A stretch of DNA of 41,456 nt from a virus. Under the pieces are notes generated by a model, which ran no database searches, was not told the DNA's origin, and worked only from the letters and a program-made list of their open reading frames with translations. Both the position numbers and the translations under genes were made by a program. Shown piece by piece: positions 27,842 to 40,365 of the stretch (within the stretch, counting starts at the first letter, position 1; each line of letters starts with the position of its first letter). The stretch is taken from positions 1-41,456 of IMG/VR virus record IMGVR_UViG_3300045242_000195; one strand, written 5' to 3'.

Positions 27842-27911
27842 CGGTGGAGATTTGGTGGAGTAGCGGCTAAACCGTTGATTTCATTAGGCTAGGCGCTCCC
27901 TACACAAGGGA
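27842..27911 (+). repeat. att-like element R1 (inverted partner at 39780-39849)
   Basis: Seventy bases match the reverse complement of 39780-39849 at 67 positions. It contains GGTGGAG twice, 11 bp apart (27843-27849, 27854-27860), GCTAA-x-CC-x-TTGAT, and a hairpin CTCCCT-ACACA-AGGGAG (27896-27912). The same blocks in the same order occur in the attP region at 3536-3604. The loop reads TACACAA here and TTCACAC in attP. I infer an integrase-recognised site or a fossil of one. Confidence 0.7.
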
Positions 27912-28021
27912 GAACATCAAGCTGGACATAGAGATTCGCCAGATCCGGGCGCCGGCCGCTCCGGCGAGCGCGCGCCCTAGCCAGTAAAATGTCCCTGGAA
28001 TAATCCGATCCGGCAAATAGC

Positions 28022-28287
28022 GCTGCACAGTTGCACAGGCGTTGCACAGGCGTTGCACACCCTTAGAATAGAATTACATGAGACATAACAATATCTTATC
28101 TTATCTGTCCCGCTCACTGTGCAACTGTGCAACGCGATCCTCGCGCACATGCGCGCGCGCTCGCTTGCGCGCACATGCGCACGTGTTTGCCCGTTGCACA
28201 GTTGCACAGTGCCACCAATTCGCTCTTTTCATAGCAATATCAACGGCTTAGATGTGCAACGTCCTGTGCAATGGCGTTGCACAGGAC
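28022..28287. repeat. Iteron/palindrome cluster built on TTGCACAG, with AT-rich segment
   Basis: TTGCACA(G/C) occurs at 28031, 28042 and 28053 (exact 11-bp steps), inverted at 28117 and 28125, direct at 28194 and 28202, inverted at 28264 and direct at 28277. A 20-bp perfect inverted repeat joins 28115-28134 to 28192-28211, enclosing a duplicated GCGCACATGCGC (28143, 28169). A second perfect 11-bp palindrome lies at 28261-28287. An AT-rich stretch (28063-28108) lies between the first and second groups. The plan resembles a replication origin with iterons, or a dense operator for a phage regulator. Confidence 0.75.
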
Positions 28288-28452
28288 CCGGACCCGTATC
28301 GCACGAAGCATCTCGCGTGTGTTCTGCCACTAATCGGCAAGGGTAGGGGCGAACGCAACAGACACACGCGCGAAGTCGGAGCTCACGCGATCCGCGCAAT
28401 CCGCCACGAGTCGGAGCGGTGCTCGAACGTGCGGCGTTCTGTCACATATGCT

Positions 28453-28469
28453 AGTGAAATAATTTCATC
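28453..28469. promoter_or_regulatory. Operator-like palindrome upstream of ardC
   Basis: AGTGAAATAATTTCATC contains TGAAA-N3-TTTCA. A near copy (AGTGAACCAATTTCACT) lies at 30342-30358. It sits in AT-rich sequence 56 bp upstream of the ardC start, where a promoter would be expected, so it is probably a regulator binding site. Confidence 0.45.
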
Positions 28470-28524
28470 ATATACGGCCGATGCCATGTTGGCGCATGGC
28501 ACGAAACAGCAAGGGAATTCAGTC

Positions 28525-29376
28525 ATGAGAGACATCTACCAAGAAGTAACCGATCGCATCATTGCAGCGCTCGAGTCCGGCACGGCGCCTTGGTTGCGTC
28601 CGTGGCGCGACGGCAAAAGCGGTTCAGCACAAGAACCGTTCAACGCGCTTAGCGGGCGGCCCTATAACGGCATCAATCTGTTGATCTTAGGGACCATGCC
28701 GTACGCGTCGCTTGCCTGGCTCACCTTCAAGCAAGCGCTTGAGCTAGGCGGCAACGTCAAGAAGGGTGAACGCGGCACTCAAATCATTTTTTGGAAGTTC
28801 GAAGCGCGCAAAGACGAAGAGACGGGCAAAGTAAAAACGATCCCGTTCGCGCGCGCCTATACCGTGTTCAACGTGGAGCAATGCGAGAACCTGGACGCGG
28901 CAAAACTCAAGCTTCCGGCGCCGCCAACGGAAGGCGCAACGGATATGAACGCATTGGCGGCCAGGGTCGGGGCAATCGTCCGTCATGGCGGCAACCGCGC
29001 GTTCTTTTCGCCGCATCATGACTTTGTGCAAATGCCGGGCGCCGAAACCTTCAAGAGCCAAGAACACTACCAGGCGACGCTCGCTCACGAATTGACGCAC
29101 TGGACCGGCCACGACAAACGCTGCAAGCGCGAATTCGGCAAGCGCTTTGGCGATGACGCCTACGCCTTCGAAGAGCTAGTCGCGGAAATCGGGTCTGCCT
29201 TCCTTTGCGCGCAACATGGCATCGCTTTGGAAGGCTTGCAGCATGCGGCCTATCTGGCCGGCTGGCTCAAGATCCTGAAAGAGGACAAGCGCGCCATCTT
29301 TACTGCCAGCTCCAAAGCGCGCGAAGCGGCCACATTCCTGACAGGCGAACGCGAAGAAGAAGCAATCGCCGCCTGA
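28525..29376 (+). CDS. ardC: ArdC-like antirestriction protein (283 aa)
   Basis: I choose ATG 28525 (MRDIYQEVTDRIIAALESGTAPWLRPW) with AAGGGA upstream; earlier in-frame starts add an unlikely leader. Residues 1-130 form the ArdC N-terminal ssDNA-binding domain (PFNALSGRPYNGIN..., then GERGTQIIFWKFE, then ARAYTVFNVEQC). The C-terminal domain is a zincin-like metallopeptidase with H188-E-L-T-H192 and the downstream EELVAEIGSAFL segment, which should supply the third ligand. Plasmid ArdC protects incoming DNA from restriction, and the TraC-type primase shares the N-terminal domain. It starts a small plus-strand operon. Confidence 0.93.
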   Translation: MRDIYQEVTDRIIAALESGTAPWLRPWRDGKSGSAQEPFNALSGRPYNGINLLILGTMPYASLAWLTFKQALELGGNVKKGERGTQIIFWKFEARKDEETGKVKTIPFARAYTVFNVEQCENLDAAKLKLPAPPTEGATDMNALAARVGAIVRHGGNRAFFSPHHDFVQMPGAETFKSQEHYQATLAHELTHWTGHDKRCKREFGKRFGDDAYAFEELVAEIGSAFLCAQHGIALEGLQHAAYLAGWLKILKEDKRAIFTASSKAREAATFLTGEREEEAIAA

Positions 29377-29448
29377 TTTCTCCGGCTAGGGCACGGATCA
29401 TTCCGTGCCCCTTCCGGTGCAATCAAGCGCCAAACGAAAGGACAGCAC

Positions 29449-29643
29449 ATGCAATTCACAGCCGAAGAAGCATTCGAAGCGAGCGATTGCGAGGAACCGA
29501 TCATGATTACACGCGCGGCGGCGATGCGCCTAGTAAGCGAGCACGACGCCACGTGGGAAGAATTCGAAGCGGACAATAAGGGAACCGGGATCGGCTTTAA
29601 TACTTTTGACGCGGCGCATGTTTTGCGCTGGCTTGGTTACTGA
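29449..29643 (+). CDS. Small acidic protein in the ardC operon (64 aa)
   Basis: GAAAGGACAGCAC precedes ATG 29449. It is acidic (many Glu/Asp, e.g. EEAFEASDCEEP, DATWEEFEADNKG) and helical. Small acidic proteins next to ard genes can be DNA mimics, but 64 aa is short and no ArdA or Ocr similarity is visible. Function unknown. Confidence 0.6.
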   Translation: MQFTAEEAFEASDCEEPIMITRAAAMRLVSEHDATWEEFEADNKGTGIGFNTFDAAHVLRWLGY

Positions 29644-29724
29644 ATTGACAGCCTAAAGCAACCTATCAGCATCATACAAATGCCGCGTTGGCGCGCGGTA
29701 CAACAACAGCAAGGAGTTACTGCA

Positions 29725-30165
29725 ATGGCGAAACTGAAAGCACACGGCACGGAAATCGGCACGCTCTACACAATGACCGGGCAACGCCGGTATATGTCGG
29801 ATGGCAAGATTTTGACCAATCATGGCCATGGCTGGAAATTGCACGGCAAGATCAAAGACGGCGTGAACCCGCAACAGGCATTCGAACGCGCGCAAGAACG
29901 CCAAAGAGAATTTATCGCCGCGAACCCCATGACTGCGGCCTATAAGGCCGCGCTTCATGAGACTGCGCCGGCGTGCAAACGCTGGAAGCTCCACCTAGCA
30001 ATTGGCATGATGCCCGACGATCCAGATGGCGTGTGGTCCGATGCCTGTGACGGCTATGGCGACAACGTGCATGCGGACTTGGACGACGTTGTGCGCCTTT
30101 GCGAGCTGTACAAGCTGGCATTGAACGAGCGCAAATCTCTGCAAACCACAACCGACGCCACGTGA
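29725..30165 (+). CDS. Hypothetical protein in the ardC operon (146 aa)
   Basis: AAGGAG at 29711 supports ATG 29725 rather than the in-frame ATG 45 bases earlier. The N-terminal part is compact and beta-like (GTEIGTLYTMTGQRRYMSDGKILTNHGHGWKLHGKIK), the rest helical. It is followed by a strong terminator, so it closes the operon. No family is recognised. Its place beside ardC suggests an anti-defence or plasmid-like accessory role. Confidence 0.6.
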   Translation: MAKLKAHGTEIGTLYTMTGQRRYMSDGKILTNHGHGWKLHGKIKDGVNPQQAFERAQERQREFIAANPMTAAYKAALHETAPACKRWKLHLAIGMMPDDPDGVWSDACDGYGDNVHADLDDVVRLCELYKLALNERKSLQTTTDAT

Positions 30166-30176
30166 CGGCAAAAAGC

Positions 30177-30210
30177 GGCCCCCGGACGGATTGGCGTCTA
30201 TCCGGGGGCC
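30177..30210. terminator. Bidirectional intrinsic terminator after the ardC operon
   Basis: GGCCCCCGGA pairs perfectly with TCCGGGGGCC around a 14-nt loop. On the plus strand TTGATT follows. On the minus strand GCTTTTTG follows, so it should work well in both directions. It isolates the ardC operon from the hairpin-rich interval to its right. Confidence 0.8.
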
Positions 30211-30341
30211 TTGATTGCCATGGCCTCGACCCAACGCCAGCAAGGCAACGGGGGGGAAACCATAGACAACCCAAGGGGAACCTATGACCTATGCCAGGGA
30301 AAACGGCGCCGAAAATGACGCGGCGTTCTGCCGCGTATCAT

Positions 30342-30358
30342 AGTGAACCAATTTCACT
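30342..30358. promoter_or_regulatory. Operator-like palindrome, second copy
   Basis: AGTGAA-CCAAT-TTCACT is a 6-bp-arm inverted repeat, and its sequence matches the palindrome upstream of ardC (28453-28469) except at a few positions. It is 63 bp upstream of the 25-codon ORF. A shared regulator, perhaps the HTH protein at 30591, could bind both. Confidence 0.4.
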
Positions 30359-31109
30359 GATTTCTTGGGAGTGGTGAAGGGGATGGAATCGGCCATCCCC
30401 GCCACACTGAGGAGAGCCCGATGGAGAAACATCGGACCATCCTCCACCTTCGGATCAGATTGTTCGGGTACGCCCTAACGATCCTGCTCCGCCGGTGAGG
30501 AGGCCGCCCCCAGGTACGAACTGGGGGCGGTTCTCTCCAATATAGGGCAGAAATCCATGACTGATCAATTACCGCGCGGGAAACCCTGAAATGACGCCCC
30601 GCGATTTCGCCGCCTGGCGCAAGGCCATGGGATATTCCTACACGGCCGCCGCCGCAGCGCTTGGCCTGTCCCGCCGCATGATCATCCTCTACGAGAATGG
30701 CGAAAAACCCGTTCCCGGTGATCCCGCAAAAACAACGGACATCGTTATTCCACGTGCGGTCGCGCTCGCCTGCGCCGCGCTTGCCGCGGGGCTCGATCCC
30801 ATCGGCACACTCAAACCCAAAGGACGATTGGGCTGACCTGGCGCTCCTCAAAAGTATATCCCCGTTCCGTTGGGTCCAACGGCTCGCCCCGTGCTCGGGG
30901 CTGGTGAGCTCTTGCTCCCTGGTCGGTAGTCCGCCGCTGGCGACAACATCTTCCCAAGCGGCGTCGTTGACATCGACGGTCGGCACGTCCTGCCAGCCGC
31001 CGTACTTCTCGCCGGGGCAAAGAGAGCCACTCGCATCGACGCATGGCGTCACGTAGCGGAACTGGAGGAACCGCTGCTCGCCAAGGGCAACCCATCGCAT
31101 CTCAAACAT
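30354..31109 (-). CDS. Leftward ORF: N-terminal ~85 residues look real, remainder doubtful
   Basis: The start (ATG 31109) is 10 bp after the stop of the upstream gene. Residues 1-60 (LQFRYVTPCVDASGSLCPGEKYGGWQDVPTVDVND) resemble small phage proteins with a 'LQ(Y/F)R... DASG... W-DVP-VD' pattern. Beyond ~residue 90 the frame lies antisense to the HTH gene (30591-30836) and across the terminator at 30504, and its composition becomes random (Arg/Trp-rich). I think the original stop was lost by mutation or rearrangement. The correct gene is probably about 31109 down to ~30840. Confidence 0.45.
   Translation of the reverse strand: MFEMRWVALGEQRFLQFRYVTPCVDASGSLCPGEKYGGWQDVPTVDVNDAAWEDVVASGGLPTREQELTSPEHGASRWTQRNGDILLRSARSAQSSFGFECADGIEPRGKRGAGERDRTWNNDVRCFCGITGNGFFAILVEDDHAAGQAKRCGGGRVGISHGLAPGGEIAGRHFRVSRAVIDQSWISALYWREPPPVRTWGRPPHRRSRIVRAYPNNLIRRWRMVRCFSIGLSSVWRGWPIPSPSPLPRNQ
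30379..30400 (+). other. Hairpin upstream of the 25-codon ORF
   Basis: GGGGATGG-AATCGG-CCATCCCC gives an 8-bp perfect stem. It ends 20 bases before the ATG at 30421, close to its Shine-Dalgarno (GAGGAGAG). It could form an attenuating or stabilising leader structure. Confidence 0.4.
30421..30498 (+). CDS. 25-aa basic/hydrophobic peptide ORF between two hairpins
   Basis: ATG 30421 has an excellent Shine-Dalgarno (GAGGAGAG, spacing about 6). The peptide has basic ends (MEKHR..., ...LLRR) and a central hydrophobic stretch (LFGYALTILL). It is flanked by the hairpin at 30379-30400 and the terminator at 30504-30530, so the interval looks like a self-contained mini transcript. It may be a leader peptide, a type I toxin-like membrane peptide, or simply an unselected ORF. 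No homologue is known to me. Confidence 0.4.
   Translation: MEKHRTILHLRIRLFGYALTILLRR
30504..30530 (+). terminator. Intrinsic terminator after the 25-codon ORF
   Basis: CCGCCCCCAG-GTACGAA-CTGGGGGCGG is a perfect 10-bp stem with a 7-nt loop, followed by TTCTCT. It begins 5 bases after the TGA of the 25-codon ORF. Confidence 0.7.
30591..30836 (+). CDS. XRE-type HTH regulator (81 aa)
   Basis: The first 40 residues (FAAWRKAMGYSYTAAAAALGLSRRMIILYENGEKPVPGD) form a lambda-type HTH, with GLSRRMIILYENG as recognition-helix region. The second part (IPRAVALACAALAAGLDPI) is the helical end usual in small phage regulators of alphaproteobacteria. It is near two matching palindromes (28453, 30342) that it might bind. 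An opposite-strand frame covers it but reads as non-coding there. Confidence 0.8.
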   Translation: MTPRDFAAWRKAMGYSYTAAAAALGLSRRMIILYENGEKPVPGDPAKTTDIVIPRAVALACAALAAGLDPIGTLKPKGRLG

Positions 31110-31118
31110 TTTGGCTCG

Positions 31119-31304
31119 TCAAGAATTGGGGGCAGCATTGATCGGGCCGCCGTCTGATTTCTGTTCAAGCAGGAAGGCCAGTGCCGAGACTTGAAACTCC
31201 AGATCGCGAACGCGCTCGACCAACCCCACGACTACGCGCCAGCCGCGCCGCCCCTTCAGCCTCTCGGCCAACTCTTCGCCTTCTCGGATCAGTTCAGCGC
31301 TCAC
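31119..31304 (-). CDS. Small coiled-coil protein (61 aa)
   Basis: It starts with GTG 31304, overlapping the upstream gene by 11 bp. Most of it is one amphipathic helix (ELIREGEELAERLKGRRGWRVVVGLVERVRDLEFQVSALAFLLEQ). No family is recognised. It is part of the leftward cluster of very small genes 32.3-30.8 kb. Confidence 0.5.
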   Translation of the reverse strand: MSAELIREGEELAERLKGRRGWRVVVGLVERVRDLEFQVSALAFLLEQKSDGGPINAAPNS

Positions 31305-31449
31305 GGAGGGCTCTGAGTTCGCGGACGGATTCGCAAAGATTTTTGATGGCCCTGGCCGCGTCCCACATCTGCGCGGTGTATGCTTTTGAGTTAGACAGCA
31401 CTAGGGCTGCGTCCGCTTCGTACTTTTTCAGGTCATCTTCGCTGATCAT
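31294..31449 (-). CDS. Small helical protein (51 aa)
   Basis: ATG 31449 is preceded by TAGGTGAG. The sequence is charged and helical (EDDLKKYEADAALVLSNSKAY..., ending LRALRER). It overlaps the next gene by 11 bp. Function unknown. Confidence 0.5.
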   Translation of the reverse strand: MISEDDLKKYEADAALVLSNSKAYTAQMWDAARAIKNLCESVRELRALRER

Positions 31450-31459
31450 GGTGCTCGTC

Positions 31460-31552
31460 TCACCTAGAACGTTGGAAAGCAATTATTGCTATAATTCCGA
31501 TCAATGGACCGAATAGGATTAGCAGTGTTGCGCCAATAAGAATTTCGGCCAT
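31460..31552 (-). CDS. 30-aa single-pass membrane peptide
   Basis: The start ATG 31552 is preceded by GAGGAGCAA, a strong ribosome site. The peptide is one long hydrophobic segment of about 24 residues (LIGATLLILFGPLIGIIAII) followed by FQRSR. It could be a small phage membrane regulator or lysis accessory. Its ribosome site is part of the repeated GATTGAGGAGC junction. Confidence 0.6.
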   Translation of the reverse strand: MAEILIGATLLILFGPLIGIIAIIAFQRSR

Positions 31553-31554
31553 TT

Positions 31555-31565
31555 GCTCCTCAATC
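31555..31565 (-). repeat. Stop/Shine-Dalgarno junction repeat GATTGAGGAGC (copies 31555, 32020, 32234)
   Basis: The same 11 bases occur at 31555-31565, 32020-32030 and 32234-32244 on the minus strand. Each contains the TGA stop of one gene in frame after an Asp codon and the GAGGAGC ribosome site of the next gene. This module lets genes be swapped with stop and ribosome site intact. Confidence 0.7.
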
Positions 31566-31805
31566 CTTCTTCCGAGCAACGGCACGACGACGCCCCGCTC
31601 GAACCTGTTTCGGCCCGCAGAGGATGACGCCTTCCGGCAACGGCACGAGCCCGCCAGTCGCGTCCCACATCTCGACCTGCTTCATGGCGTCAAGCAGACT
31701 ACGGCTTGCTGGCGACAAACCCTTAATGTAGCGGGCGACCGCTTCCGTGCTGTCGGTTGGCTTGAAGCCGCAGAACGCCATAATCTCGGCATCGGTCATG
31801 GGCAT
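31560..31805 (-). CDS. Hypothetical small protein (81 aa)
   Basis: AAAAGGTGAG precedes ATG 31805. The N-terminal half is acidic (PMTDAEIMAFCGFKPTDSTEAVARYIKG), the C-terminus basic (VRAGRRRAVARKKD). The stop lies inside the repeated junction GATTGAGGAGC, so it is coupled to the membrane peptide. No family is recognised. Confidence 0.55.
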   Translation of the reverse strand: MPMTDAEIMAFCGFKPTDSTEAVARYIKGLSPASRSLLDAMKQVEMWDATGGLVPLPEGVILCGPKQVRAGRRRAVARKKD

Positions 31806-31812
31806 TGGCTGC

Positions 31813-32016
31813 TCACCTTTTGGATGTTGGGGGTAATGGCGGAGTGCCATGGATCGCGAGCCACCACGCGAGCCGCGCGTACCATGGCCTAACACCATTG
31901 GAGAGACAGAACATCGCCAGCGCCATTTTCAGCGCACGCAGCCGCGAGCCTTCGCCCATGCCGTGACGCTTGCGGCGGACTGAGCGATAGGCGGATATAG
32001 CTGGTTCTATCTTCAC
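31813..32016 (-). CDS. Hypothetical basic protein (67 aa)
   Basis: I start at GTG 32016 because GAGGAGC lies six bases upstream in the repeated junction. It is basic (RSVRRKRHGMGEGSRLR) with one hydrophobic, aromatic segment (ALAMFCLSNGVRPWYARLAWWLA) that could associate with membranes. Function unknown. Confidence 0.5.
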   Translation of the reverse strand: MKIEPAISAYRSVRRKRHGMGEGSRLRALKMALAMFCLSNGVRPWYARLAWWLAIHGTPPLPPTSKR

Positions 32017-32024
32017 GATGCTCC

Positions 32025-32231
32025 TCAATCAGGTATTGGCTCAAAGCGACCATCAAGAAACTCTTCGGTCAGGCGCAGGCGGAATTCCCCTGTCTCCACG
32101 TTGCGATAGACAGTCCACTTCTGATCAGCAAAACGGTCCTCGAACTCCTGCGCGGTGGAACATTGGAGCGACGCGGTATCTGAAATGACCTCGTAGATTT
32201 TGTTACGCTTGATGTGTCGATACTTGGTCAT
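32025..32231 (-). CDS. Small DUF1653-like phage protein (68 aa)
   Basis: ATG 32231 is preceded by GAGGAGCGA. The sequence YRHIKRNKIYEVISDTASLQCS..., then WTVYRNVETGEFRLRLTEEFLDGRFE, resembles the small SH3-like DUF1653 pattern ('Y-H-KG-Y-V...VVYR...G--WVR---EF-dRF'). Such proteins are common in phages and have no proven role. It ends in IPD at the repeated junction. Confidence 0.6.
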   Translation of the reverse strand: MTKYRHIKRNKIYEVISDTASLQCSTAQEFEDRFADQKWTVYRNVETGEFRLRLTEEFLDGRFEPIPD

Positions 32232-32238
32232 TCGCTCC

Positions 32239-32328
32239 TCAATCAGACGTGCCGAGTGCAGCATTTTGGACAGTTTCATTACCATGTCTGCGAACCTGTT
32301 CGGCTGAGCCTAACTTTCTAAATTCCAT
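32239..32328 (-). CDS. 29-aa ORF ending at the third GATTGAGGAGC junction
   Basis: It starts at ATG 32328 without a clear ribosome site and ends GTSD-stop inside the junction repeat, exactly as its two downstream neighbours end (KKD-stop and IPD-stop). This is the main reason to list it. It may be a C-terminal remnant of a larger lost gene at the left edge of the cassette run. Confidence 0.3.
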   Translation of the reverse strand: MEFRKLGSAEQVRRHGNETVQNAALGTSD

Positions 32329-32353
32329 ACGGGCAATTGGATATTATGGATGT

Positions 32354-32389
32354 TCAACGGCAACACCAAAAAGACTCTAACTGAGGCCC
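32354..32389 (+). repeat. 36-bp exact direct repeat, copy 1 (copy 2: 33763-33798)
   Basis: The sequence TCAACGGCAACACC...GAGGCCC is identical at both sites. In copy 2 it is the last 10 codons, stop and downstream bases of the 33389 gene. In copy 1 it lies upstream of a different gene and is read in another frame. Copy 1 is therefore a leftover gene end. Confidence 0.85.
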
Positions 32390-32394
32390 CAACC

Positions 32395-32580
32395 GTGATT
32401 GAGAATTGCCTAGTCGATCACTGCATGCGGCGCGAATTGCGCTGGGAGATTGATCGTCTCAGGCTCTGCCTTCAGGAAATCTCTGACCTACAATATGGCG
32501 GCACATCGCTCACGGATCAGGCCCATAAGTTCAATGCTGCCCTGAGCTACGCTAAATTCGCCCTGAGCAAGAAAGTATAG
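32395..32580 (+). CDS. Small hypothetical protein (61 aa)
   Basis: I favour GTG 32395, with GAGG nine bases upstream inside the 36-bp repeat (32354-32389). An ATG at 32350 in the same frame has no ribosome site. The protein is helical (RELRWEIDRLRLCLQEISDL). Its TAG stop is fused to the Shine-Dalgarno of the next gene (TAGGAG). Confidence 0.5.
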   Translation: MIENCLVDHCMRRELRWEIDRLRLCLQEISDLQYGGTSLTDQAHKFNAALSYAKFALSKKV

Positions 32581-32585
32581 GAGAC

Positions 32586-32673
32586 GCCCGCCATGGATTA
32601 CGGCTCAACAGCGCTTACTCTAGTTGATCGCATTCGCGCACTGATCCCGGCCCACCCAGAAATCCTGGCGATG
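32586..32673 (+). repeat. 88-bp exact direct repeat, copy 1 (copy 2: 33382-33469)
   Basis: Eighty-eight bases, from GCCCGCC before the ATG through codon 27, are identical in the two positions, 796 bp apart. Copy 1 then diverges, copy 2 continues as a full gene. The identity includes silent positions, so the duplication is recent or maintained by recombination. Confidence 0.9.
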
Positions 32674-32778
32674 GAATCAGCTTGGGATTTGGGCGCTGCG
32701 GCACGCGCAAGAGCTTTATTCAAAAGACTCTTAGAAAGACCCGCACCGTGCCAAGGCACTTGCATACGAGTTCGATGA
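32593..32778 (+). pseudogene. Truncated/frameshifted copy of the 33389 gene (61-codon ORF)
   Basis: The first 27 codons are identical to the gene at 33389. After that, the sequence has one extra G compared with copy 2 (GATGGAATC versus GATGAATC). If that G is removed the frame reads MNQLGIWALRHAQELYSKDS and then stops at TAG, with QxxxKDS resembling the end of the intact gene (RQHQKDSN). The open frame as it stands ends in an Arg/Ala-rich tail that looks random. I read it as a decayed copy. An alternative is a short true protein with a new C-terminus. Confidence 0.5.
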
Positions 32779-32921
32779 TTAGGAAGCACCCCAAGGCGCT
32801 TGCGCGGGCAATCTGGCATCCGGGCAAGAAATGCGGCTGGGGTCCGACTAAGAAGCGGAAGCGCCGCAAGGGTAAAGTGCACTTCTCGTTACGTGACAAA
32901 CAAGCCGATTGTAGAACCTAG
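32775..32921 (+). CDS. Very basic small protein (48 aa)
   Basis: ATG 32775 overlaps the preceding TGA (ATGA). It is strongly basic (GPTKKRKRRKGKVHF) with two Cys, suggesting nucleic-acid binding. The TAG stop is fused to the next ribosome site (CCTAGGAGACGCC). No family is known to me. Confidence 0.45.
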   Translation: MIRKHPKALARAIWHPGKKCGWGPTKKRKRRKGKVHFSLRDKQADCRT

Positions 32922-32935
32922 GAGACGCCGATCCC
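32918..32935 (+). repeat. Stop/Shine-Dalgarno junction CCTAGGAG(A/T)CGCCGATCC (copies 32918, 33138)
   Basis: The junctions before the 32936 and 33157 genes share 17 of 18 bases, and the one before 32593 (TAGGAGACGCC) shares the core. Each joins a TAG stop to an AGGAG ribosome site, the plus-strand counterpart of the GATTGAGGAGC module. Confidence 0.65.
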
Positions 32936-33142
32936 ATGAATATCAAATGGCTCAAGGTGCAGATGGATAAGTTGAGGTCCGAGGCCAGTCGTGGGCCGGT
33001 GCCGTCGTCGGTGATATTTACGCTCACCGACCCGATCATGGACAAGATTTCTGCCTGGGAATACCCGCGCTACCATGCCTGCTGCGGATACTCCTCAGAT
33101 GGCCCGCACAACGATTCGTGCCCCATCATCCCAGCTTCCTAG
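32936..33142 (+). CDS. Small hypothetical protein (68 aa)
   Basis: The ribosome site is AGGAG inside CCTAGGAGACGCCGATCC. The C-terminal third has a CC and further Cys/His (RYHACCGYSSDGPHNDSCPI), possibly metal-binding. Its own stop is fused to the next Shine-Dalgarno in a near copy of the same junction. Confidence 0.5.
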   Translation: MNIKWLKVQMDKLRSEASRGPVPSSVIFTLTDPIMDKISAWEYPRYHACCGYSSDGPHNDSCPIIPAS

Positions 33143-33156
33143 GAGTCGCCGATCCA

Positions 33157-33378
33157 ATGCTTGGCTGCAATCACACCATCCAGGCCCAGGGCGAATTTTT
33201 CGAGAGCCGTTTTGGACGAGCGCCGGGATGGGTAAAGCAGCGCATCGTTTTCGTCTCAAACGGCGACGACGATCATTACTGGATGGGCTTGGAGAATTGG
33301 TCAGAAGTGGACGCAATGATCACCAAATTGCAGACAGCAGCGACCGAAGCTTTCGGCCCCAAACCTGAAACTACGTGA
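33157..33378 (+). CDS. Small hypothetical protein (73 aa)
   Basis: I start at ATG 33157 after TAGGAGTCGCC. The protein is soluble with an acidic, aromatic centre (RIVFVSNGDDDHYWMGLENWSEVDAMITKL). No recognised family. It is followed directly by the 88-bp repeat that opens the next gene. Confidence 0.5.
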   Translation: MLGCNHTIQAQGEFFESRFGRAPGWVKQRIVFVSNGDDDHYWMGLENWSEVDAMITKLQTAATEAFGPKPETT

Positions 33379-33388
33379 AAGGCCCGCC

Positions 33389-33793
33389 ATGGATTACGGC
33401 TCAACAGCGCTTACTCTAGTTGATCGCATTCGCGCACTGATCCCGGCCCACCCAGAAATCCTGGCGATGAATCGCCCGCCAGTGCTCGAAAAAATCAACA
33501 GCACTCGCCTGATAAAATCAGTAGGGATCACGCGCGTCCTAGTGAACGATAGCGATCGCGAGCACTCCTACCAGATGAGCATTCCGGCCGGTGATCCAAC
33601 GGGCGACGGCTCACTCGGATGGCGGCTCAACTATGGCGGAGAACCCACGCTGAACGATCTGCACTCGGCGATCAGCATCATGGAAAGCTACGAATACCTG
33701 CTCTCGTCCGGCATCACGACGGCGGAGGCTATCAACCGCCTCCGTTGCCTGCGGCGCGAGTATCAACGGCAACACCAAAAAGACTCTAACTGA
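33389..33793 (+). CDS. Intact copy of the duplicated gene (134 aa)
   Basis: The first 27 residues (MDYGSTALTLVDRIRALIPA...) are shared with the decayed copy at 32593. The body is soluble, mixed alpha/beta and ends in a charged helix (INRLRCLRREYQRQHQKDSN). The upstream bases GAAAGGCCCGCC give a weak ribosome site. No family is recognised. The last ten codons form copy 2 of the 36-bp repeat. Confidence 0.6.
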   Translation: MDYGSTALTLVDRIRALIPAHPEILAMNRPPVLEKINSTRLIKSVGITRVLVNDSDREHSYQMSIPAGDPTGDGSLGWRLNYGGEPTLNDLHSAISIMESYEYLLSSGITTAEAINRLRCLRREYQRQHQKDSN

Positions 33794-33923
33794 GGCCCGG
33801 CGCAACGGCTCACAAGAAACCGTCCTCCGCAGGCAAGACCACAAAGGCCAACACCGGCTAAAAATCCCCAGGAGGGGCGGCGCGCAACCCGCCACCCTTT
33901 TCCTTTTCTAAGGAGTCTTCCGT
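33794..33923. other. Short gap without gene
   Basis: About 130 bp following the 36-bp repeat, GC-rich. It ends with CTAAGGAGTC, the ribosome site of the next gene. I see no other feature. Confidence 0.3.
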
Positions 33924-34247: not shown

Positions 34248-34350
34248 AAAAACGAAGGCCCCCTGAAAAGCGCAACCAGTTCCGGGGGCCTTCCACAGGC
34301 ATCTAGGGAGGGGGGAAAAATTGGGGCGACACCTGTACTCCGAGGGGAGC
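34245..34350 (-). ncRNA. Candidate ~100-nt leftward small RNA
   Basis: The third promoter-like element (34357-34388) points left, and the first thing downstream is the U-tract terminator at 34255-34292; there is no leftward gene until 32.3 kb. The transcript would have no ORF with a ribosome site and would end antisense to the 3' end of the 33924-34247 gene. The exact 5' end is unknown. Confidence 0.35.
34255..34292 (-). terminator. Intrinsic terminator, best for leftward transcription
   Basis: AAGGCCCCC pairs with GGGGGCCTT around a 20-nt loop. On the minus strand the stem is followed by CGTTTTTTCAC, a strong U-tract; on the plus strand only TTCC follows. It should stop transcription coming from the element at 34357, giving a short RNA. 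Confidence 0.75.
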
Positions 34351-34356
34351 AGGGTC

Positions 34357-34388
34357 AGGAGCGCCACGGTTCGCCCCACTCTGTCAAG
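34357..34388 (-). promoter_or_regulatory. Promoter-like element, copy c: CTTGACA-N15-TGGCGCTCCT
   Basis: Minus strand: CTTGACA, 15 bases, TGGCGCTCCT, with identical blocks and spacing to copies at 5218 and 25305. It begins 10 bases after the stop of the gene at 34398-34619. It points to the terminator at 34255-34292 rather than to a gene. Confidence 0.55.
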
Positions 34389-34397
34389 GGGTTCCCC

Positions 34398-34619
34398 CTA
34401 TTCCTGAATCACGAACATGCGCACGAACTTGCCGTGCCCGAGCGGCAATTCCGCGATCTGTTCCGGCATCTCGATGTCGCCGCGTTCGATTGCGTCACAA
34501 TAGGCGCGCGTGACGGCGAGAAAGAGCTTTTTGTCCGCCTGCGGCCCGAGCACGGCACCCAAGCGCTGATAGAGCGGCTGCTTGTTGTGATGCCCGTGTG
34601 CTGTTTCGGTCTTTTCCAT
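34398..34619 (-). CDS. Hypothetical small protein (73 aa)
   Basis: I use ATG 34619, with AGGAAAG about ten bases upstream; the frame is open for 18 more codons. The protein is soluble (ADKKLFLAVTRAYCDAIERGDIEMPEQIAELPLGHGKFVRMFVIQ). A 9-bp-stem hairpin (GGCCGCGTG/CACGCGGCC, 34651-34679) lies in its leader. No family recognised. Confidence 0.5.
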   Translation of the reverse strand: MEKTETAHGHHNKQPLYQRLGAVLGPQADKKLFLAVTRAYCDAIERGDIEMPEQIAELPLGHGKFVRMFVIQE

Positions 34620-34693
34620 AGACTTGTCGCTTTCCTGAAAAGTGAAAGGAGGCCGCGTGACGATCTGATCCACGCGGCCCCCGTATCTAAAAT

Positions 34694-34713
34694 GGGCGCG
34701 CGGACGCGCGCCC
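34694..34713 (-). terminator. Terminator of the leftward replication operon
   Basis: GGGCGCGCG-GA-CGCGCGCCC forms a 9-bp stem with a tight loop directly after the stop at 34716. On the minus strand ATTTTAGA follows, and on the plus strand CTTTATTT, so it may serve both directions. Confidence 0.65.
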
Positions 34714-34715
34714 CT

Positions 34716-35057
34716 TTATTTCGGCTGTGGGATGTCGAGGACCCCGTAATGCTTCCCGTCGCTCGCCCAAATCACGACCAGCGCCTTACCCGGCGGGATG
34801 TTGCTGCCCGGAGGCAAGGGCGGCCAGATCGTACCGCCCTGCGGATCGGGTGGCACGATCGGATGGGCCGGCGCTGGCGGATAAGGTTGTCCAGGCGGCA
34901 AGGCGATGGGATGCGACGGCTGGCCGCCGCCCGGCAACCCTTGATCGGGATGGCCGGGACCACCCGGCAACCCATGGCCCGGATGGCCGGGCCAGCCGCC
35001 CGGCAACCCTTGATCGGGATAGTTCCCGGTGACCGGGATGATCAAAGCAAGCTGCAT
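34716..35057 (-). CDS. Gly/Pro-rich repeat protein (113 aa)
   Basis: AGGAGAT precedes ATG 35057. Residues 15-70 contain imperfect repeats of PDQGLPGG and PGHPGHGLPGG, then PSHPIALPPGQPYPP. The C-terminus is a short beta segment (KALVVIWASDGKHYGVLDIP). I have seen this type ('PDQGLP... PSHPI...') in phages of alphaproteobacteria; the function is unknown, possibly structural. It ends directly at a terminator. Confidence 0.65.
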   Translation of the reverse strand: MQLALIIPVTGNYPDQGLPGGWPGHPGHGLPGGPGHPDQGLPGGGQPSHPIALPPGQPYPPAPAHPIVPPDPQGGTIWPPLPPGSNIPPGKALVVIWASDGKHYGVLDIPQPK

Positions 35058-35129
35058 GAATGAATCTCCTTTTTTGGTTGACACCCCCTCGGAGCACAGG
35101 AGCCGCCCCCTTAAAGCGGCCCCACTCGC

Positions 35130-35369
35130 TCACCGCCGGATCGCAAACAAGCCCGTGCAGGAGAGCAAATCGAAAACGAAAACGATGACGGCGATCGCCA
35201 CCAGCGCCCAAATGATGATGCGCAGAATCGCTACGACAATGCCGCCGTCCGGATTGCCGAATTGCGCGAGCACCCAAGGCACCACCAGATTGACGATGGC
35301 GATGACCGCGATGACAAAGACGAGCCAGATCAAAAAACTCTGCAAGACTGCCGGAGTGAAGCAAGCCAT
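35130..35369 (-). CDS. Two-helix membrane protein, possible holin (79 aa)
   Basis: ATG 35369 follows AAGGAAATTGACG. Two hydrophobic segments (SFLIWLVFVIAVIAIVNLVV at ~10-32 and LRIIIWALVAIAVIVFVFDLL at ~48-70) are joined by a short polar turn, and the C-terminus is GLFAIRR. Size and topology match a class II holin or other small phage membrane protein. No endolysin is adjacent, so the holin call is tentative. Confidence 0.55.
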   Translation of the reverse strand: MACFTPAVLQSFLIWLVFVIAVIAIVNLVVPWVLAQFGNPDGGIVVAILRIIIWALVAIAVIVFVFDLLSCTGLFAIRR

Positions 35370-35371
35370 CG

Positions 35372-37300
35372 TCAATTTCCTTTTGCTCGATCGGGCGGCG
35401 CGATGTCGTCTTCCTCGCCCGCCTGCATCGGCGGGAACACCGTCTCCCACGGCAATGTCGTGACGATATGCTGCACGCCGCCGATACGCCGGCGCCGGAC
35501 CTCGCCGCGATTGCCGAAGATCGCGCCATCGAGACGCTGCATCGCTTGCGCCCAGGTCCCCGGCGCACCCGCCTCGCCCTTCCATTGCGTACCGTTGAAG
35601 ATCTTCCGCAATTCGAGCGCGGTATGGCTGATGTCGACGAACCAGCCCTGTTCATCCTGCCAATCGGACTTGCCTTCGAATCGCCTCGACGCGCCGGCCG
35701 CGAAACTGCGCGCATCGCGATAGACCCTGAGCCCAATCCGCGCCAGCGTGTCGCCCGCCGTCTTCTGTCCCATCGCCTCGAGCAATTCGCGCCGCGCTTC
35801 GACCAGCCAAAACGCCACCGATTCGCGCGACCCGCCCCGGAAATGATCGGGCAGATATTCCAACAGATGATCGAGGCATTGGCGTTCCTCGCTTTTCTGA
35901 TCGGCCTCGCCGACCACGCTCAAGGGCATCGCCTGCCCCCATTCTTCGGCGCGCGCCGGATCGAACCCGGTCCACATCATCAGATCGTAGGCCGCACCGA
36001 TGGCGGCATACTGATCGGCGATGCGATCGGTATGACCGGCATTGCGCAAACCCCGGCGATAGGACCCCAGGGTCCGTTTGTACCGGCCCCATTGCTCGAC
36101 CAGACGCCCGAGCAATTCCGCGCCGATGCGGGTCCAATCCTCCCGTCTGCCCAACACCTCATGCACTTCGATGTCGTCTTCGAGTTCGCCTTCGTCTTCG
36201 CCGGCCTCGCGTTCGCGCGCACCCCGGCGCAACAGCGACAACACGGCAAAGCGCGAACGGTCCTGTGCCCGCAGGGGCGGCATCAGCACCGACGACGCCA
36301 CAAAGCAGTTCCAAAGCTGTGTCGATGTCGGCGTGCCATCCTGCCCGCCGCGCAGCCGCGTGCCGCCGCTGCTTGCGATCCGCATCAATTCGATGGTTTC
36401 GGTGATCTGACGATTGTCGGCCTTGGCTTCGAGCTCATCGAGGCTGACGGGCCGCGAGGAATAGCCGACCGTCTGCGCGATGCCCGCCGTCGTCGCGTTC
36501 TCCGCTTCGATCATGCCGTCCCTGCCGTGCAACCACCGGCTCAACAATTGCAGCGTGCTCTTGCCGGAGCCGAAGCCCCCGGTAATCCACGCTTGCGCGC
36601 GCCATTCATTCGCCTGCCCGAGACATTGACAGCCATAGAGCCCGACCCAGAGCTTCGCCATGACCGGCTGCGCCCATTGGCAGGTTTCCGCGAGCGCCAG
36701 AAGCTTCGCGGCGGGCCCATCCGGCCCCGCCTTCGCCCCGAACACAGGCTCGCGCACGCTCGCGCATTTCGGATACAGCAACCCGCCGCGCAAACCCGTG
36801 CCGCAGCGCTCCTTGCCGACAAACAACACATCGCCGCAATGGATGATGAGCTTGCCCTCTTCGACCCATCCGCCCTGTGTGCGGACATGGGTCATCGGGT
36901 CCCACACGCCCTTCTCAGTCGCGGCCCGGATCAGCATCCCGCCGAGGATGCCGTGATTCCAATTCTTGAGATTGCCGTCCTTGTCATAGACCGGGAAGCG
37001 CTTGCGCAACCATTGCTCGCCGCCGAACAACCCGATGATGTTGAGGCGATTGACCTCGCTGCATTTGAGTTCGATCAATTGCCCGATGGAATCGAGGAAA
37101 TAACAGACATTGCCCTTGCGCCCGAGCGCGATGACCGGCGCATCGGGCGGCAAACGATCCGGTATTTCCGTCGCATAGAAGGGGGGCCCTTCGCCCGCCG
37201 CCGTCTTCTCTTTCTTCGGCCGCCGCTTGATCGGCTCCGCATTGACGACGGCAAGGTGAACCGTCTTTTTGGGTTCGGAGGAAGGGGTTTCGTCCGTCAT
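35372..37300 (-). CDS. AAA+ replicative helicase / primase-associated ATPase (642 aa)
   Basis: I start at ATG 37300. The first 40 residues are basic and disordered. Residues ~40-220 have mixed strands with several Cys. Walker A is GGFGSGKST (241-249), Walker B-like is VSLDELEA (LDE 287-289), and a later segment (LMRIASSGGTRLRGGQDG, then FVASSVLMPPLRAQDRSRF) has the sensor and arginine-finger style of DUF927/D5-type phage helicases. It lies three genes downstream of the Toprim primase. Together they are probably the replisome core, recruiting a host DNA polymerase. Confidence 0.82.
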   Translation of the reverse strand: MTDETPSSEPKKTVHLAVVNAEPIKRRPKKEKTAAGEGPPFYATEIPDRLPPDAPVIALGRKGNVCYFLDSIGQLIELKCSEVNRLNIIGLFGGEQWLRKRFPVYDKDGNLKNWNHGILGGMLIRAATEKGVWDPMTHVRTQGGWVEEGKLIIHCGDVLFVGKERCGTGLRGGLLYPKCASVREPVFGAKAGPDGPAAKLLALAETCQWAQPVMAKLWVGLYGCQCLGQANEWRAQAWITGGFGSGKSTLQLLSRWLHGRDGMIEAENATTAGIAQTVGYSSRPVSLDELEAKADNRQITETIELMRIASSGGTRLRGGQDGTPTSTQLWNCFVASSVLMPPLRAQDRSRFAVLSLLRRGAREREAGEDEGELEDDIEVHEVLGRREDWTRIGAELLGRLVEQWGRYKRTLGSYRRGLRNAGHTDRIADQYAAIGAAYDLMMWTGFDPARAEEWGQAMPLSVVGEADQKSEERQCLDHLLEYLPDHFRGGSRESVAFWLVEARRELLEAMGQKTAGDTLARIGLRVYRDARSFAAGASRRFEGKSDWQDEQGWFVDISHTALELRKIFNGTQWKGEAGAPGTWAQAMQRLDGAIFGNRGEVRRRRIGGVQHIVTTLPWETVFPPMQAGEEDDIAPPDRAKGN

Positions 37301-37530
37301 GGGCGCGCCGCCGGGTTCCACCGGAGCGGCTGTTGCCAGTCGAACAGCGGGGCCTTGTTTCGCGCAAAGCACCAGCGCCCCCCCGACCAGACCACCGGAT
37401 AGGGAAATTCATGCTCGAAAGGCGGGTGCTTCCGCACGCCGCCGGCGCCCTTCACCAGAATCGTAATCACCGTGCCGTCCCGAGGCGCATCGCGCATCCC
37501 CCACCAGGCATGATCCGGCTCGCTTGTCAT
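37297..37530 (-). CDS. Small hypothetical protein (77 aa)
   Basis: ATG 37530 overlaps the upstream stop (ATGA) and the TGA overlaps the helicase ATG, so it is strictly coupled. The pattern WWGMRDAPRDGTVITILVKG...VVWSGGRWCFARN...PLRW resembles small phage proteins with an 'AP-DGT-I...V-W...G-W' motif, often encoded near replication genes. Function unknown. Confidence 0.6.
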   Translation of the reverse strand: MTSEPDHAWWGMRDAPRDGTVITILVKGAGGVRKHPPFEHEFPYPVVWSGGRWCFARNKAPLFDWQQPLRWNPAARP

Positions 37531-37703
37531 GTCTGATCCTCCCTGCGCAGCCGCCGCACTTCGGCGAGCAGCGCCACCGCATCGGCCTTCAACTGTTCAA
37601 CCCACGGCGCATAAGACAGATCGCGCAGACTCTTCGGACACCCGAAATGATCGGCGAATCGCTTCGCCATCGCTTCCAATTCGGCATCCGCGAGTTTGCT
37701 CAT
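37527..37703 (-). CDS. Small helical protein (58 aa)
   Basis: It begins MSKLADAELEAMAKRF and ends VRRLRREDQT, with ATGA overlaps on both sides inside the replication operon. It is helical with a possible coiled coil at the C-terminus (KADAVALLAEVRRLRRE). It may be an accessory to primase or helicase. No family recognised. Confidence 0.6.
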   Translation of the reverse strand: MSKLADAELEAMAKRFADHFGCPKSLRDLSYAPWVEQLKADAVALLAEVRRLRREDQT

Positions 37704-38794
37704 GCGGCACCCCGCCCTTGCCCGCGCGTCTTTCCGATCAGGACATCGTTCACGTCCTTGAAGGCATCGGGCATTCGCGCGAGTTTGACTTCGTACCGAT
37801 CCGCAAGATCGAGGCAGCGCAATTCGAGATTGCGTTCCGCTTCCACATTGCCGGTATCGTTATCGCCGACCACCACCACGCCGCCGATGGTTTGCGGAAA
37901 GCGCATCAGGCCGAGCGCGTTCAGGCTATAGGCCGCGACCACCCGCTCGCCGGGCAGCGCGATCGCCAGCGCCAGACCGTCTTCGATGCCTTCCGTGGCG
38001 TGAACCCACTCGCCCTTGGGCGCGTGATTCAGCGCCTTGCCCGATCGCCCCCGCGCGATGCGGATGCTCGCGCCGGCGACATAGCCGAGCACGCATTTCG
38101 AATCCTTCTTGCCGAACGCCTTCACCCACACCCCGCCTTCTTCTTTCAGGTAGATGCGATGGATGCCGCCGAAGCCCCGGCCCTGGCCCTCGAGACTTTG
38201 GCAGGCGACGAGCGCGGGAAAGCGCCCCGGCTGACTCGGATGCGTCAGACGCGGATGGAAGTGCAAGCTGCGCGGAAACACGCCGCCTTCGAGTTCGCGC
38301 GGGTCCAGCCCGCGCGCCTTCAGATACAGGCTCGCCGGATCGTCCCCATTGAGCGGGTTCGATTCGAGATAGAGCGCGAAAGCGATGCCGCGCTTCCTGT
38401 CGCGTTCCGCTTTTTCGCCGGCGCGGTTGCGCTTGACCTGTTCTTCGACGGCGCGCGCCTTGGCGGGGTCCGGCGCCTCGCCTTCGATGCCGAGCCAGCG
38501 CTTCGCCCATGGGATAGCGCGGTGAAAATCGCCTTCGGTCGCGAGATAGGCGACGAGCGACAGGCCGGGCAGCGCCTTGCCGCCGTCGCCGGTAAAAAAA
38601 TCCTTCCACACCCCGGTCGCGAGATTGATGCTGAAGGACCCGCGGCTGCGGTCGAACCGCGCCGGATTGATCGCCACCCATTCATGACCGCGGCGCTCGC
38701 CATCGGGCGCGAGCTCGCGCGCCAGACGCTCCATCTGATTGATCAGCAGACGGTCGATCTGCTCGACCGTGTAGTAGTAGCGCACGGCACTCAT
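37700..38794 (-). CDS. Toprim-domain DNA primase (364 aa)
   Basis: The N-terminal third has primase-like features (WVAINPARFDRSRGSFSINLATGVWKDFFTGDGG, then SLVAYLATEGDFHRAIPWAKRWLG). The Toprim domain has TEGIEDGLALA with the catalytic Glu and GDND near the end. It lacks a full four-Cys zinc ribbon. It would synthesise primers for the adjacent helicase-driven replication. The start overlaps nothing unusual; the stop overlaps the next ATG. Confidence 0.85.
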   Translation of the reverse strand: MSAVRYYYTVEQIDRLLINQMERLARELAPDGERRGHEWVAINPARFDRSRGSFSINLATGVWKDFFTGDGGKALPGLSLVAYLATEGDFHRAIPWAKRWLGIEGEAPDPAKARAVEEQVKRNRAGEKAERDRKRGIAFALYLESNPLNGDDPASLYLKARGLDPRELEGGVFPRSLHFHPRLTHPSQPGRFPALVACQSLEGQGRGFGGIHRIYLKEEGGVWVKAFGKKDSKCVLGYVAGASIRIARGRSGKALNHAPKGEWVHATEGIEDGLALAIALPGERVVAAYSLNALGLMRFPQTIGGVVVVGDNDTGNVEAERNLELRCLDLADRYEVKLARMPDAFKDVNDVLIGKTRGQGRGAA

Positions 38795-38979
38795 GCTTCG
38801 TCCTTGAGCTTTTTCTTGCGCCGCTTTTTATGGCCGAGCTTGCCGACGACCGAGGCGAGATTGCGGAATCCTCCCGAACTCCAATCGACCGTGCTCTTGC
38901 CCGGCGGCACCACGCTCACCCTGCCGCCCTTCTTGGCGAAATCGCGCATCAAGGTTTCGATGTCGCGCTTGGTGCTCAT
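38791..38979 (-). CDS. Small basic protein (62 aa)
   Basis: I start at ATG 38979, which overlaps the upstream stop (TGATG). It ends in a strongly basic tail (LGHKKRRKKKLKDEA), so nucleic-acid binding is plausible. It is translationally coupled to the primase. No family is known. Confidence 0.6.
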   Translation of the reverse strand: MSTKRDIETLMRDFAKKGGRVSVVPPGKSTVDWSSGGFRNLASVVGKLGHKKRRKKKLKDEA

Positions 38980-39281
38980 CACCGCGCCGCCTTCCGATGC
39001 GTATACGGAGCATCGTTCTCGAGCCGCGCGAACGCATCGACGAGATCCATCACCGCGTCCGCCGCGAGCGCGCGCGCTTCGCCCTCGAGCGAGGCGAGGT
39101 TCAGCGTTGCCTCGCGCAAGGTGCGCGCGGCCTGGTGCTTGACCTCGCCCACCACTTCGGGCGGCGGCAGGCGGGCGAGCACCATATCGGCGAGCGCGAT
39201 GTTGCGGTCCTCGCTGGTCGGGCCGCGCGCCGCGCGCTTGGCGATGACGATCAGATGCGTGCCGCGCGAAAACCGGCTCAT
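38979..39281 (-). CDS. Hypothetical early protein (100 aa)
   Basis: It starts at ATG 39281 within the stop region of the HTH gene and ends one base inside the next ATG. It is helical (EVVGEVKHQAARTLREATLNLASLEGEARALAADAVMDLVDAFARLE). The N-terminus (SRFSRGTHLIVIAKRAARG) is basic. Function unknown; it is the second gene of the early operon. Confidence 0.6.
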   Translation of the reverse strand: MSRFSRGTHLIVIAKRAARGPTSEDRNIALADMVLARLPPPEVVGEVKHQAARTLREATLNLASLEGEARALAADAVMDLVDAFARLENDAPYTHRKAAR

Positions 39282-39553
39282 GGCGGCGGCTCCGCGCAGA
39301 GGCCATCCGGCCCCGGCTTGTTAAGGCGCGTCAGATGCGCGGCCTGCCAGTCTTCGATCGCCCGGCGCGTCACCGCGCCATCGGTCAGGGCCTCGACCGC
39401 GATGCGGTTTTCGACCCGCATCTCGCGCACGCCCATGAACCAGCGCGACACCGTAATGACGCTGACCCCAAGGCGCTTGGCGGCGAAGCCATTGGGCAGG
39501 CGGTGATCGTGCAGCCAGATTTTCAGGGGATGGTGAAGGGGGGAATTTACCAT
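39278..39553 (-). CDS. Cro-like HTH regulator, first early gene (91 aa)
   Basis: An HTH is visible at residues ~10-45 (LKIWLHDHRLPNGFAAKRLGVSVITVSRWFMGVREM), in the style of YdaS/Cro-type phage proteins. It is first in the leftward early operon and divergent from the XRE repressor at 39950. It probably antagonises the repressor during lytic growth. Sites of type ACCATNNNGGT occur upstream, and a half site (TTACCATAAT) covers its start codon. Confidence 0.75.
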   Translation of the reverse strand: MVNSPLHHPLKIWLHDHRLPNGFAAKRLGVSVITVSRWFMGVREMRVENRIAVEALTDGAVTRRAIEDWQAAHLTRLNKPGPDGLCAEPPP

Positions 39554-39591
39554 AATCCGCCAAGCCTTCCCGTCGCGCCTCTCGCAAGAGA

Positions 39592-39620
39592 GTTAAGACG
39601 GCGGCCCGCGCCAGTGTCAA
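39592..39620 (-). promoter_or_regulatory. Leftward early promoter overlapped by an operator
   Basis: On the minus strand TTGACA (39620-39615) is followed about 17 bases later by CTTAAC (39597-39592), a weak -10. The operator AACCATTATGGTT (39619-39631) overlaps the -35, the same arrangement as at 40366-40382. Binding there would block the early operon. Confidence 0.55.
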
Positions 39621-39662
39621 CCATTATGGTTAAATTTCAGAGCGACTATTACCATAATGGTT
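39619..39662. promoter_or_regulatory. Operators O1 and O2 (ACCATNNNGGT type)
   Basis: AACCATTATGGTT at 39619-39631 and TACCATAATGGTT at 39650-39662 are near-perfect palindromes 31 bp apart (about three helical turns). They lie between the divergent Cro-like and repressor genes and would allow cooperative repressor binding. Confidence 0.65.
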
Positions 39663-39779
39663 GAATTGCACTCCGGACGGAATCCCAACTTAGACCACTA
39701 AAATTTTTGTGAGCATGTCCGACTCTGAACAGACACGCCTCCGGCCTGCCCGATCAAACGCCGGCCGCGCGCGATTCCA

Positions 39780-39849
39780 TCCCTTGTGTAGGGAGCGCCT
39801 AGCCTAATGAAATCAACGGCTTAGCCGCCACTCCACCAATTCTCCACCG
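39780..39849 (-). repeat. att-like element R2 (inverted copy of R1)
   Basis: The reverse complement matches 27842-27911 at 67 of 70 bases, including both GGTGGAG repeats and the CTCCCTACACAAGGGA core. It lies in the switch region between O2 and the repressor promoter. See R1 and attP. Confidence 0.75.
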
Positions 39850-39892
39850 TTATTCAGGACGCGCAAAGTCTCAAATTTGTCATGCATTAACT

Positions 39893-39906
39893 TACCATTT
39901 CGGTTA
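39893..39906. promoter_or_regulatory. Operator O3 in front of the repressor gene
   Basis: TACCATTTCGGTTA fits the ACCATNNNGGT pattern. It is 44 bases upstream of the repressor ATG and just downstream of a possible -35 (TTGTCA, 39877-39882), so it is placed for autoregulation. Confidence 0.55.
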
Positions 39907-39949
39907 TTTATTAGGCGTCACACTCCGCCCTTTTAGGGACGCGTCTTTT

Positions 39950-40336: not shown

Positions 40337-40365
40337 CCGTTCCGGAAAATATCCCTCGCCTAATT

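Follow-up and report, generated by a model that had tools for sequence, protein, structure and literature searches.

Phage integrases are known for joining attP to a host site, and the DNA analyzed here raises the question of whether such an enzyme could also invert part of its own genome. The stretch, called the window below, is the 41,456-base IMG/VR virus record IMGVR_UViG_3300045242_000195; it encodes a tyrosine integrase (Int) and carries two near-identical 70-nt sites, R1 and R2, in inverted orientation on either side of an 11.9-kb segment with accessory and replication genes. Good support exists for R1 and R2 as attachment (att)-like sites belonging to the phage's own integrase, because they share arm boxes, a site resembling that for integration host factor (IHF), a palindromic core and a private, identical overlap, and because R1 appears constrained. 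Inversion of the segment in cells is plausible from the layout of these sites; the idea of a regulated switch is unsupported.

The sites compared throughout are as follows.

3536–3763, + strand: attP, ~228 bp as a whole, with left arm pair 3536–3553, IHF-like site 3562–3574 (one mismatch), core 3590–3604 with overlap TTCACAC, the 3' half of tRNA-Val to 3639, and right arm pair 3746–3763
27842–27911, + strand: R1, attL-like site, with arm boxes 27843–27849 and 27854–27860, IHF-like site 27868–27880, and core 27896–27910 with overlap TACACAA at 27901–27907; outer flank GCCCGATCGGTGGAG...
39780–39849, − strand: R2, attL-like site, inverted, with arm boxes 39831–39837 and 39842–39848, IHF-like site 39811–39823, and core 39781–39795 with the overlap, read on the + strand, TTGTGTA at 39784–39790; inner flank GGGATGGAATCG

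A sequence-only reading of this DNA had reported that 27842–27911 matches 39780–39849 in inverted orientation at 67 of 70 bases, and self-comparison and self-BLAST agreed with it. In the self-comparison, these arms (96% complementary, 11,868 nt between them) form the longest inverted repeat of the window, the next pairs being at most 50 nt long at ~70%; in self-BLAST the pair has an E value of 1.6e-25, and the remaining inverted matches are local palindromes or weak. Also borne out was the description of R1 and R2 as having the layout of attP, with two GGTGGAG boxes 11 bp apart and a core of CTCCC-7 nt-GGG. Not noted in that reading were the IHF-consensus site of both copies, the second arm pair that attP has and R1 and R2 lack, and the identity of attP's overlap as the anticodon loop of tRNA-Val(CAC). 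The pattern GGTGGAG-N4-GGTGGAG-N30..40-CTCCCTNCACANGGG occurs exactly three times in the window, at 3536–3604 (+), 27843–27910 (+), and 39781–39848 (−), with 0.00 occurrences expected; none of 100 dinucleotide shuffles contained it, which rules out chance. Six of the eight GGTGGAG boxes in the 41 kb lie within attP, R1, and R2, and only three matches to the IHF consensus were found in the window, two of them at the equivalent position in R1 and R2 and one in an iteron cluster. An assembly artefact was ruled out as well, since the pair recurs in a relative, the separate record IMGVR_UViG_3300047408_000298 (G001; 40,714 bases), that comes from a different sample and was assembled independently.

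Each R site has a left arm pair, an IHF-like site, and the CTCCC-N7-GGG core and nothing more; the similarity stops at the core, and no arm-box pair was found on the inner side of R1 or R2 within a few hundred bp, a lone box with one mismatch being present near R2. The overlap TACACAA is asymmetric, inverted, and, as had been claimed, identical in R1 and R2, and it differs from the attP/attB overlap TTCACAC at 2 of 7 positions. The R cores were rejected as another tRNA target because TACACAA cannot be an anticodon loop: it has no U33, and the other strand has anticodon GTG but U37. R1 and R2 are both intergenic, and each reads core, arm, gene toward the gene outside the segment (the small terminase side for R1, the repressor for R2).

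The enzyme that would act on these sites is encoded beside attP.

2084–3094, + strand: tyrosine integrase with a putative arm-binding-type N-terminal domain; catalytic residues R184, K217, H279, R282, W306, and Y315
1782–2264, + strand: excisionase-like HTH_17 open reading frame overlapping the start of int; HTH_17 above cut-off, and matches to PHROG excisionase families

The integrase is the sole recombinase found in the window and has the full R-K-H-R-W-Y catalytic set. Its structural model shows a beta-beta-beta-alpha N-terminal domain at residues 4–48 with a predicted local distance difference test score (pLDDT) of ~80, the score for the whole model being just 61.7, and the Foldseek matches are Xer, full-length lambda Int, and Cre. 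The integrase is taken to be of lambda type, with the N-terminal domain as a candidate arm-binding domain. The attP core CTCCC-TTCACAC-GGG corresponds to the anticodon arm of tRNA-Val(CAC), with TTCACAC as the anticodon loop, and is followed by the tRNA 3' half to CCA at 3639; this tRNA identity was assigned by analogy with L262, and ARAGORN calls tRNA-Val(CAC) in a nearly identical stretch of an alphaproteobacterial genome. The anatomy of attP, a core with arm pairs on both sides and an IHF-like bend site, is made up of sequence features at which binding is predicted. The right arm pair reads GGTGGAA-TATC-GGGGGAC in the window and GGTGGAA-TATT-GGTGGAA in G001 (GGTGGAATATTGGTGGAA); because it is degenerate in the former and perfect in the latter, the 11-bp-spaced pair is confirmed as the arm-type motif. 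Related integrases occur in Alphaproteobacteria and in one metagenome-assembled genome (MAG) labelled Myxococcales. The Myxococcales contig (L221, 10.9 kb) encodes an integrase 43–45% identical to the window's, with TTCACACGGGAG and a tRNA end directly behind it; these shared elements indicate that the tRNA target is common to both. The L221 integrase gene lies at 6685–7859 and is overlapped by a xis-like open reading frame; its product has the motif HIFCHT where R282 is expected, and on that basis it may be inactive.

Comparison with G001 showed how the R sites have been kept. The two genomes are ~93–96% identical across most of their length and strongly different at 28.5–34.2 kb of the window. 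The G001 contig ends overlap by 4 bases within the integrase gene, and closing the circle restores an integrase that is intact and shares 90% identity with that of the window. G001 retains R1 and R2, inverted, and the 16-bp core and the overlap are unchanged in all four R copies. The 70-mers differ at 3 positions within the window, 10 within G001, 6 between the two R1 copies, 7 between the two R2 copies, and 8 and 7 in the cross comparisons. The resulting sums (13, 13, and 15) do not group the R copies by position, indicating that R1 and R2 have not been evolving independently for long, and since R1 and R2 of the window differ at fewer positions (3) than do the orthologues (6 and 7), the copies do not drift apart independently. 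None of the 6 changes among the 70 positions of the R1 orthologues falls in the 38 predicted binding positions (p = 0.006). Three of the 7 changes between the R2 orthologues do fall in predicted binding positions, all of them in the second arm box and the IHF site of G001. A pooled test with nearly the same position count gave p = 0.014. From these patterns, R1 looks constrained, and R2 of G001 looks partly worn.

Taking these data together, we tentatively favor the explanation that R1 and R2 serve the integrase as two additional sites of the attL type, marked by an overlap of their own, and that exchange between them would invert the segment, although we would stop short of calling it probable outright. 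The two sites are best read as an inversion-only pair that is independent of the attP × attB reaction. Two Int protomers would occupy each core, and the bend at the IHF site would bridge them to the pair of arm boxes. Pairing in tyrosine recombination depends on matching overlaps; because the overlap is identical in R1 and R2 and that of attP differs at two positions, R1 would pair with R2 and poorly with attP or the tRNA. Because R1 and R2 are inverted, an Int- and IHF-dependent exchange of the attL × attL type would flip the ~11.9-kb accessory-plus-replication segment. Segall and Nash reportedly found that lambda Int recombines attL × attL without Xis. Binding of Int to R1 and R2 is likely, and we infer that such binding could lead to strand exchange and inversion in cells.

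Several observations weigh against inversion. The opposite orientation for which the sequence-only reading had looked to relatives was not seen in them: G001, the only close relative, has the same genomic orientation as the window, and in G003, a distant structural relative without the repeat, primase and terminase are co-directional as they are in the window. G003 was found by its portal gene (59% identical portal) and is complete with a 97-base end repeat; it has no long inverted repeat and no match to this integrase. A Pfam integrase search of the portal-gene relatives G003 to G005 carries no weight, since it also missed the window's own integrase. No recombinant junction was present among the IMG/VR core matches, where the R-type cores with arm boxes are all parental and belong to G001, a weak negative, since records very near the window may be missing from these searches. 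Both circles were assembled as single contigs through the repeats with no break, which suggests one dominant orientation per sample; a 50:50 mixture of orientations would probably prevent such assembly. Furthermore, changes at 3 binding positions have cost R2 of G001 one of its arm boxes (the second) and its match to the IHF consensus, and G163, an element bounded by 48-bp direct repeats at tRNA-Glu and encoding a 38%-identical integrase, has no inverted copy. Thus, of the proposal that the integrase could flip the 11.9 kb, the att-like sites have stood, and no evidence of the flipping itself was found.

Wider searches yielded little further material for comparison. IMG/VR queries with the integrase and the primase returned only G001, and queries with the core and arm patterns returned G001 and unrelated matches only. 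A pattern search of genome contigs gave 0 hits, as did one of 385 genomes of the class of G163, and blastn against phages and plasmids found no relatives. Among 70 stretches of at least 13 kb, which partly overlap, there were 0 inverted repeats of at least 50 bp at 90% identity and more than 3 kb apart, the G001 pair itself falling just below the identity limit.

The same data bear on readings in which the sites do not recombine. R1 and R2 might be relics: a half site resembling a prophage junction that mosaic evolution picked up and copied to module joints and that now only drifts. The succession of arm, core, and foreign DNA has the look of a prophage/host junction, the sites mark module borders, R2 of G001 is decaying at its arm and IHF site, and the R sites overall diverge between the phages about as fast as the backbone. 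However, an inverted duplication at two places requires an additional event, the 6 substitutions in R1 leave its binding positions untouched, the similarity of R1 to R2 within the window exceeds that of orthologues, and both phages have kept the pair despite large-scale replacement of their accessory genes (28.5–34.2 kb). We regard this origin as unlikely, though deserving of serious weight. It is also rather unlikely that R1 and R2 bind Int and IHF mainly without recombination, as architectural or regulatory sites, with Int after infection bridging the sites, modulating promoters, or being titrated, R1 preceding the late operon and R2 lying between the repressor and the early genes. Such a role would need neither an overlap identical between sites and phages nor a full palindromic core, yet the four copies agree at all 16 core bases, and no sigma-70-like promoter was recognized at either site. 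It would fit the location of both sites in intergenic regions expected to hold promoters, each oriented toward the outside gene, the position of R2 among repressor-operator-like ACCATWATGGTT repeats, the retention of the R1 binding positions, and the fact that no inverted orientation was seen.

Two other explanations fared worse. The 70-bp repeat could be a site for another protein, such as a repressor or replication initiator, with its likeness to attP secondary; this finds a point of support in a 13-bp piece, ATCAACGGCTTAG, that recurs within the iteron cluster at 28239. The match to attP, however, extends to a pair of boxes with fixed spacing, to an IHF-like site, and to the distance at which the core follows, and G001 does not conserve the 13-mer at its iteron position, so that we judge this improbable. 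Quite improbable, too, is a cassette exchange in which co-infecting phages swap the whole accessory-replication module by a double R × R reaction. The sites do flank a module, and the adjoining 28.5–34.2 kb is strongly different between the window and G001, but the divergence profile of the two genomes has no step at either core, on which ground module swapping with breakpoints at the cores was rejected, and the inner 34.6–39.8 kb is as conserved as the DNA outside.

Returning to the inversion of the segment by R1 × R2 exchange, its consequences depend on which elements lie inside.

27908–39783: segment between the overlaps, which would invert; ArdC, accessory genes, and early/replication operon
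28030–28284 (alternatively to 28290): iteron cluster of GTTGCACA repeats and an AT-rich stretch, resembling an origin, that lies ~120 bp inward of R1
35372–38794, − strand: primase-type replication genes (open reading frames of 666 and 364 aa) of the early operon
39278–39553, − strand: small helix-turn-helix (Cro/YdaS-like) gene, first in the early operon
39950–40336, + strand: repressor-like gene (HTH_3) beyond the segment, with ~100 bp between it and R2
25633–27099, − strand: terminase large subunit, with which the late operon begins, outward of R1

The sequence-only reading had proposed that a flip would connect the early operon and the iterons to other promoters. This is not supported: both the early promoter/operator stretch (39554–39780) and the iterons belong to the segment and would travel with their genes, and only the neighbors (repressor and late operon) would change. 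A flip would part the early operon from the repressor gene, leave it and the late operon head to head, and bring the iteron cluster beside the repressor. Palindromic ACCATWATGGTT-like repeats occur around the repressor/early intergenic region, at 39617–39665 inside the segment and at 39892–39907 and 40365–40380; they are likely repressor operators, and the similar site at 39892 remains outside together with the repressor gene.

The iteron cluster consists of GTTGCACA repeats at 11-bp spacing, an AT-rich stretch, and then opposed copies; G001 has extra tandem copies. The cluster looks like an iteron-type origin, and GC skew marked no origin. It also holds the third IHF-consensus match of the window (28238–28250), which shares the 13-mer with R2 and is not conserved in G001. 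By analogy with Flp/FRT of the yeast 2-micron plasmid, the inverted pair might act as a replication-mode switch from theta to rolling-circle replication, giving concatemers for packaging, a notion to which we attach very little credence. In such a scheme, one fork would have passed R1 while the other had not yet reached R2 (11.5 kb from the iterons), and Int exchange would turn one fork round so that both forks chase each other.

The remaining gene content is, as judged from the sequence, that of a temperate podovirus. The portal is T7-type and nearest to pelagiphage portals, and a major head protein, tail proteins, and a large terminase are encoded; an ArdC antirestriction protein is encoded inside the R1–R2 segment. 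A 143-base direct repeat at the window ends points to a genome of ~41.3 kb that is circular or terminally redundant. The match between the copies of this repeat (1–143 and 41314–41456) is 99%, short of full identity, and this suggests that the sequence varies within the population. In the accessory region, exact direct repeats of 36 bp (32354–32389 and 33763–33798) and direct repeats of 114 bp at 90% identity (32560–32673 and 33356–33469) both border ~1.2 kb that is absent from G001 and appears to be an insertion or duplication.

If R1 and R2 do recombine, a single integrase would carry out two independent reactions, integration at tRNA-Val and inversion of the replication/early module, separated only by two overlap bases, which would give a well-studied class of enzymes a role at genome scale. 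Such a reaction could be relevant to the way in which temperate phages switch their mode of replication or disconnect early genes from the repressor. We are aware of no phage integrase used in this way, and the open-access literature searched yielded no description of extra, inverted attachment sites serving a phage's own integrase.

Known systems share parts of this arrangement. The tRNA-Val(CAC) integrase of L221 has the same overlap TTCACAC in the anticodon loop and the same overlapping xis-like/int layout, but its contig has neither GGTGGAG boxes nor inverted extra sites. The L-region of halovirus PhiH1 is likewise an ~11–12-kb invertible replication/regulatory module of a temperate phage (PMC6210493; Schnabel 1984), but it is flanked by insertion sequences rather than integrase att sites and also circularizes as a plasmid; the window's segment is not of this type, its flanks being 70-bp att-like sites, and no transposase was present among the open reading frames scanned. 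Rin of bifidophages (PMC6109161) and the tail-fibre module of PhiCh1/PhiH1 (PMC6210493, PMC6471424) also combine a phage tyrosine recombinase with inverted crossover sites. These are dedicated invertases with simple sites and short tail-fibre segments, whereas the window has an integrase, complex sites, and an early/replication segment. The yeast 2-micron plasmid, with Flp and FRT, shares inverted tyrosine-recombinase sites on a circular replicon with an origin near one site, and fork inversion is thought to trigger its rolling-circle amplification (PMC3737535). Its FRT sites are simple and it is a eukaryotic plasmid, so that only the geometry is shared, the window's origin being a predicted one. 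Phage lambda has a heterobivalent tyrosine integrase, as the window probably does, together with an excisionase and an attP with a second arm; to our knowledge, its genome has no extra inverted att copies. The lambda attL/Int-IHF intasome is likewise built from a core, a single IHF bend, and a pair of arm-type Int sites confined to one arm, and attL becomes competent for synapsis with exactly two Int bridges, P'1-C' and P'2-B, over that one bend (PMC4880445). The window's phage differs from lambda in carrying two extra inverted copies of such a site within its genome, with an overlap unlike that of attP.

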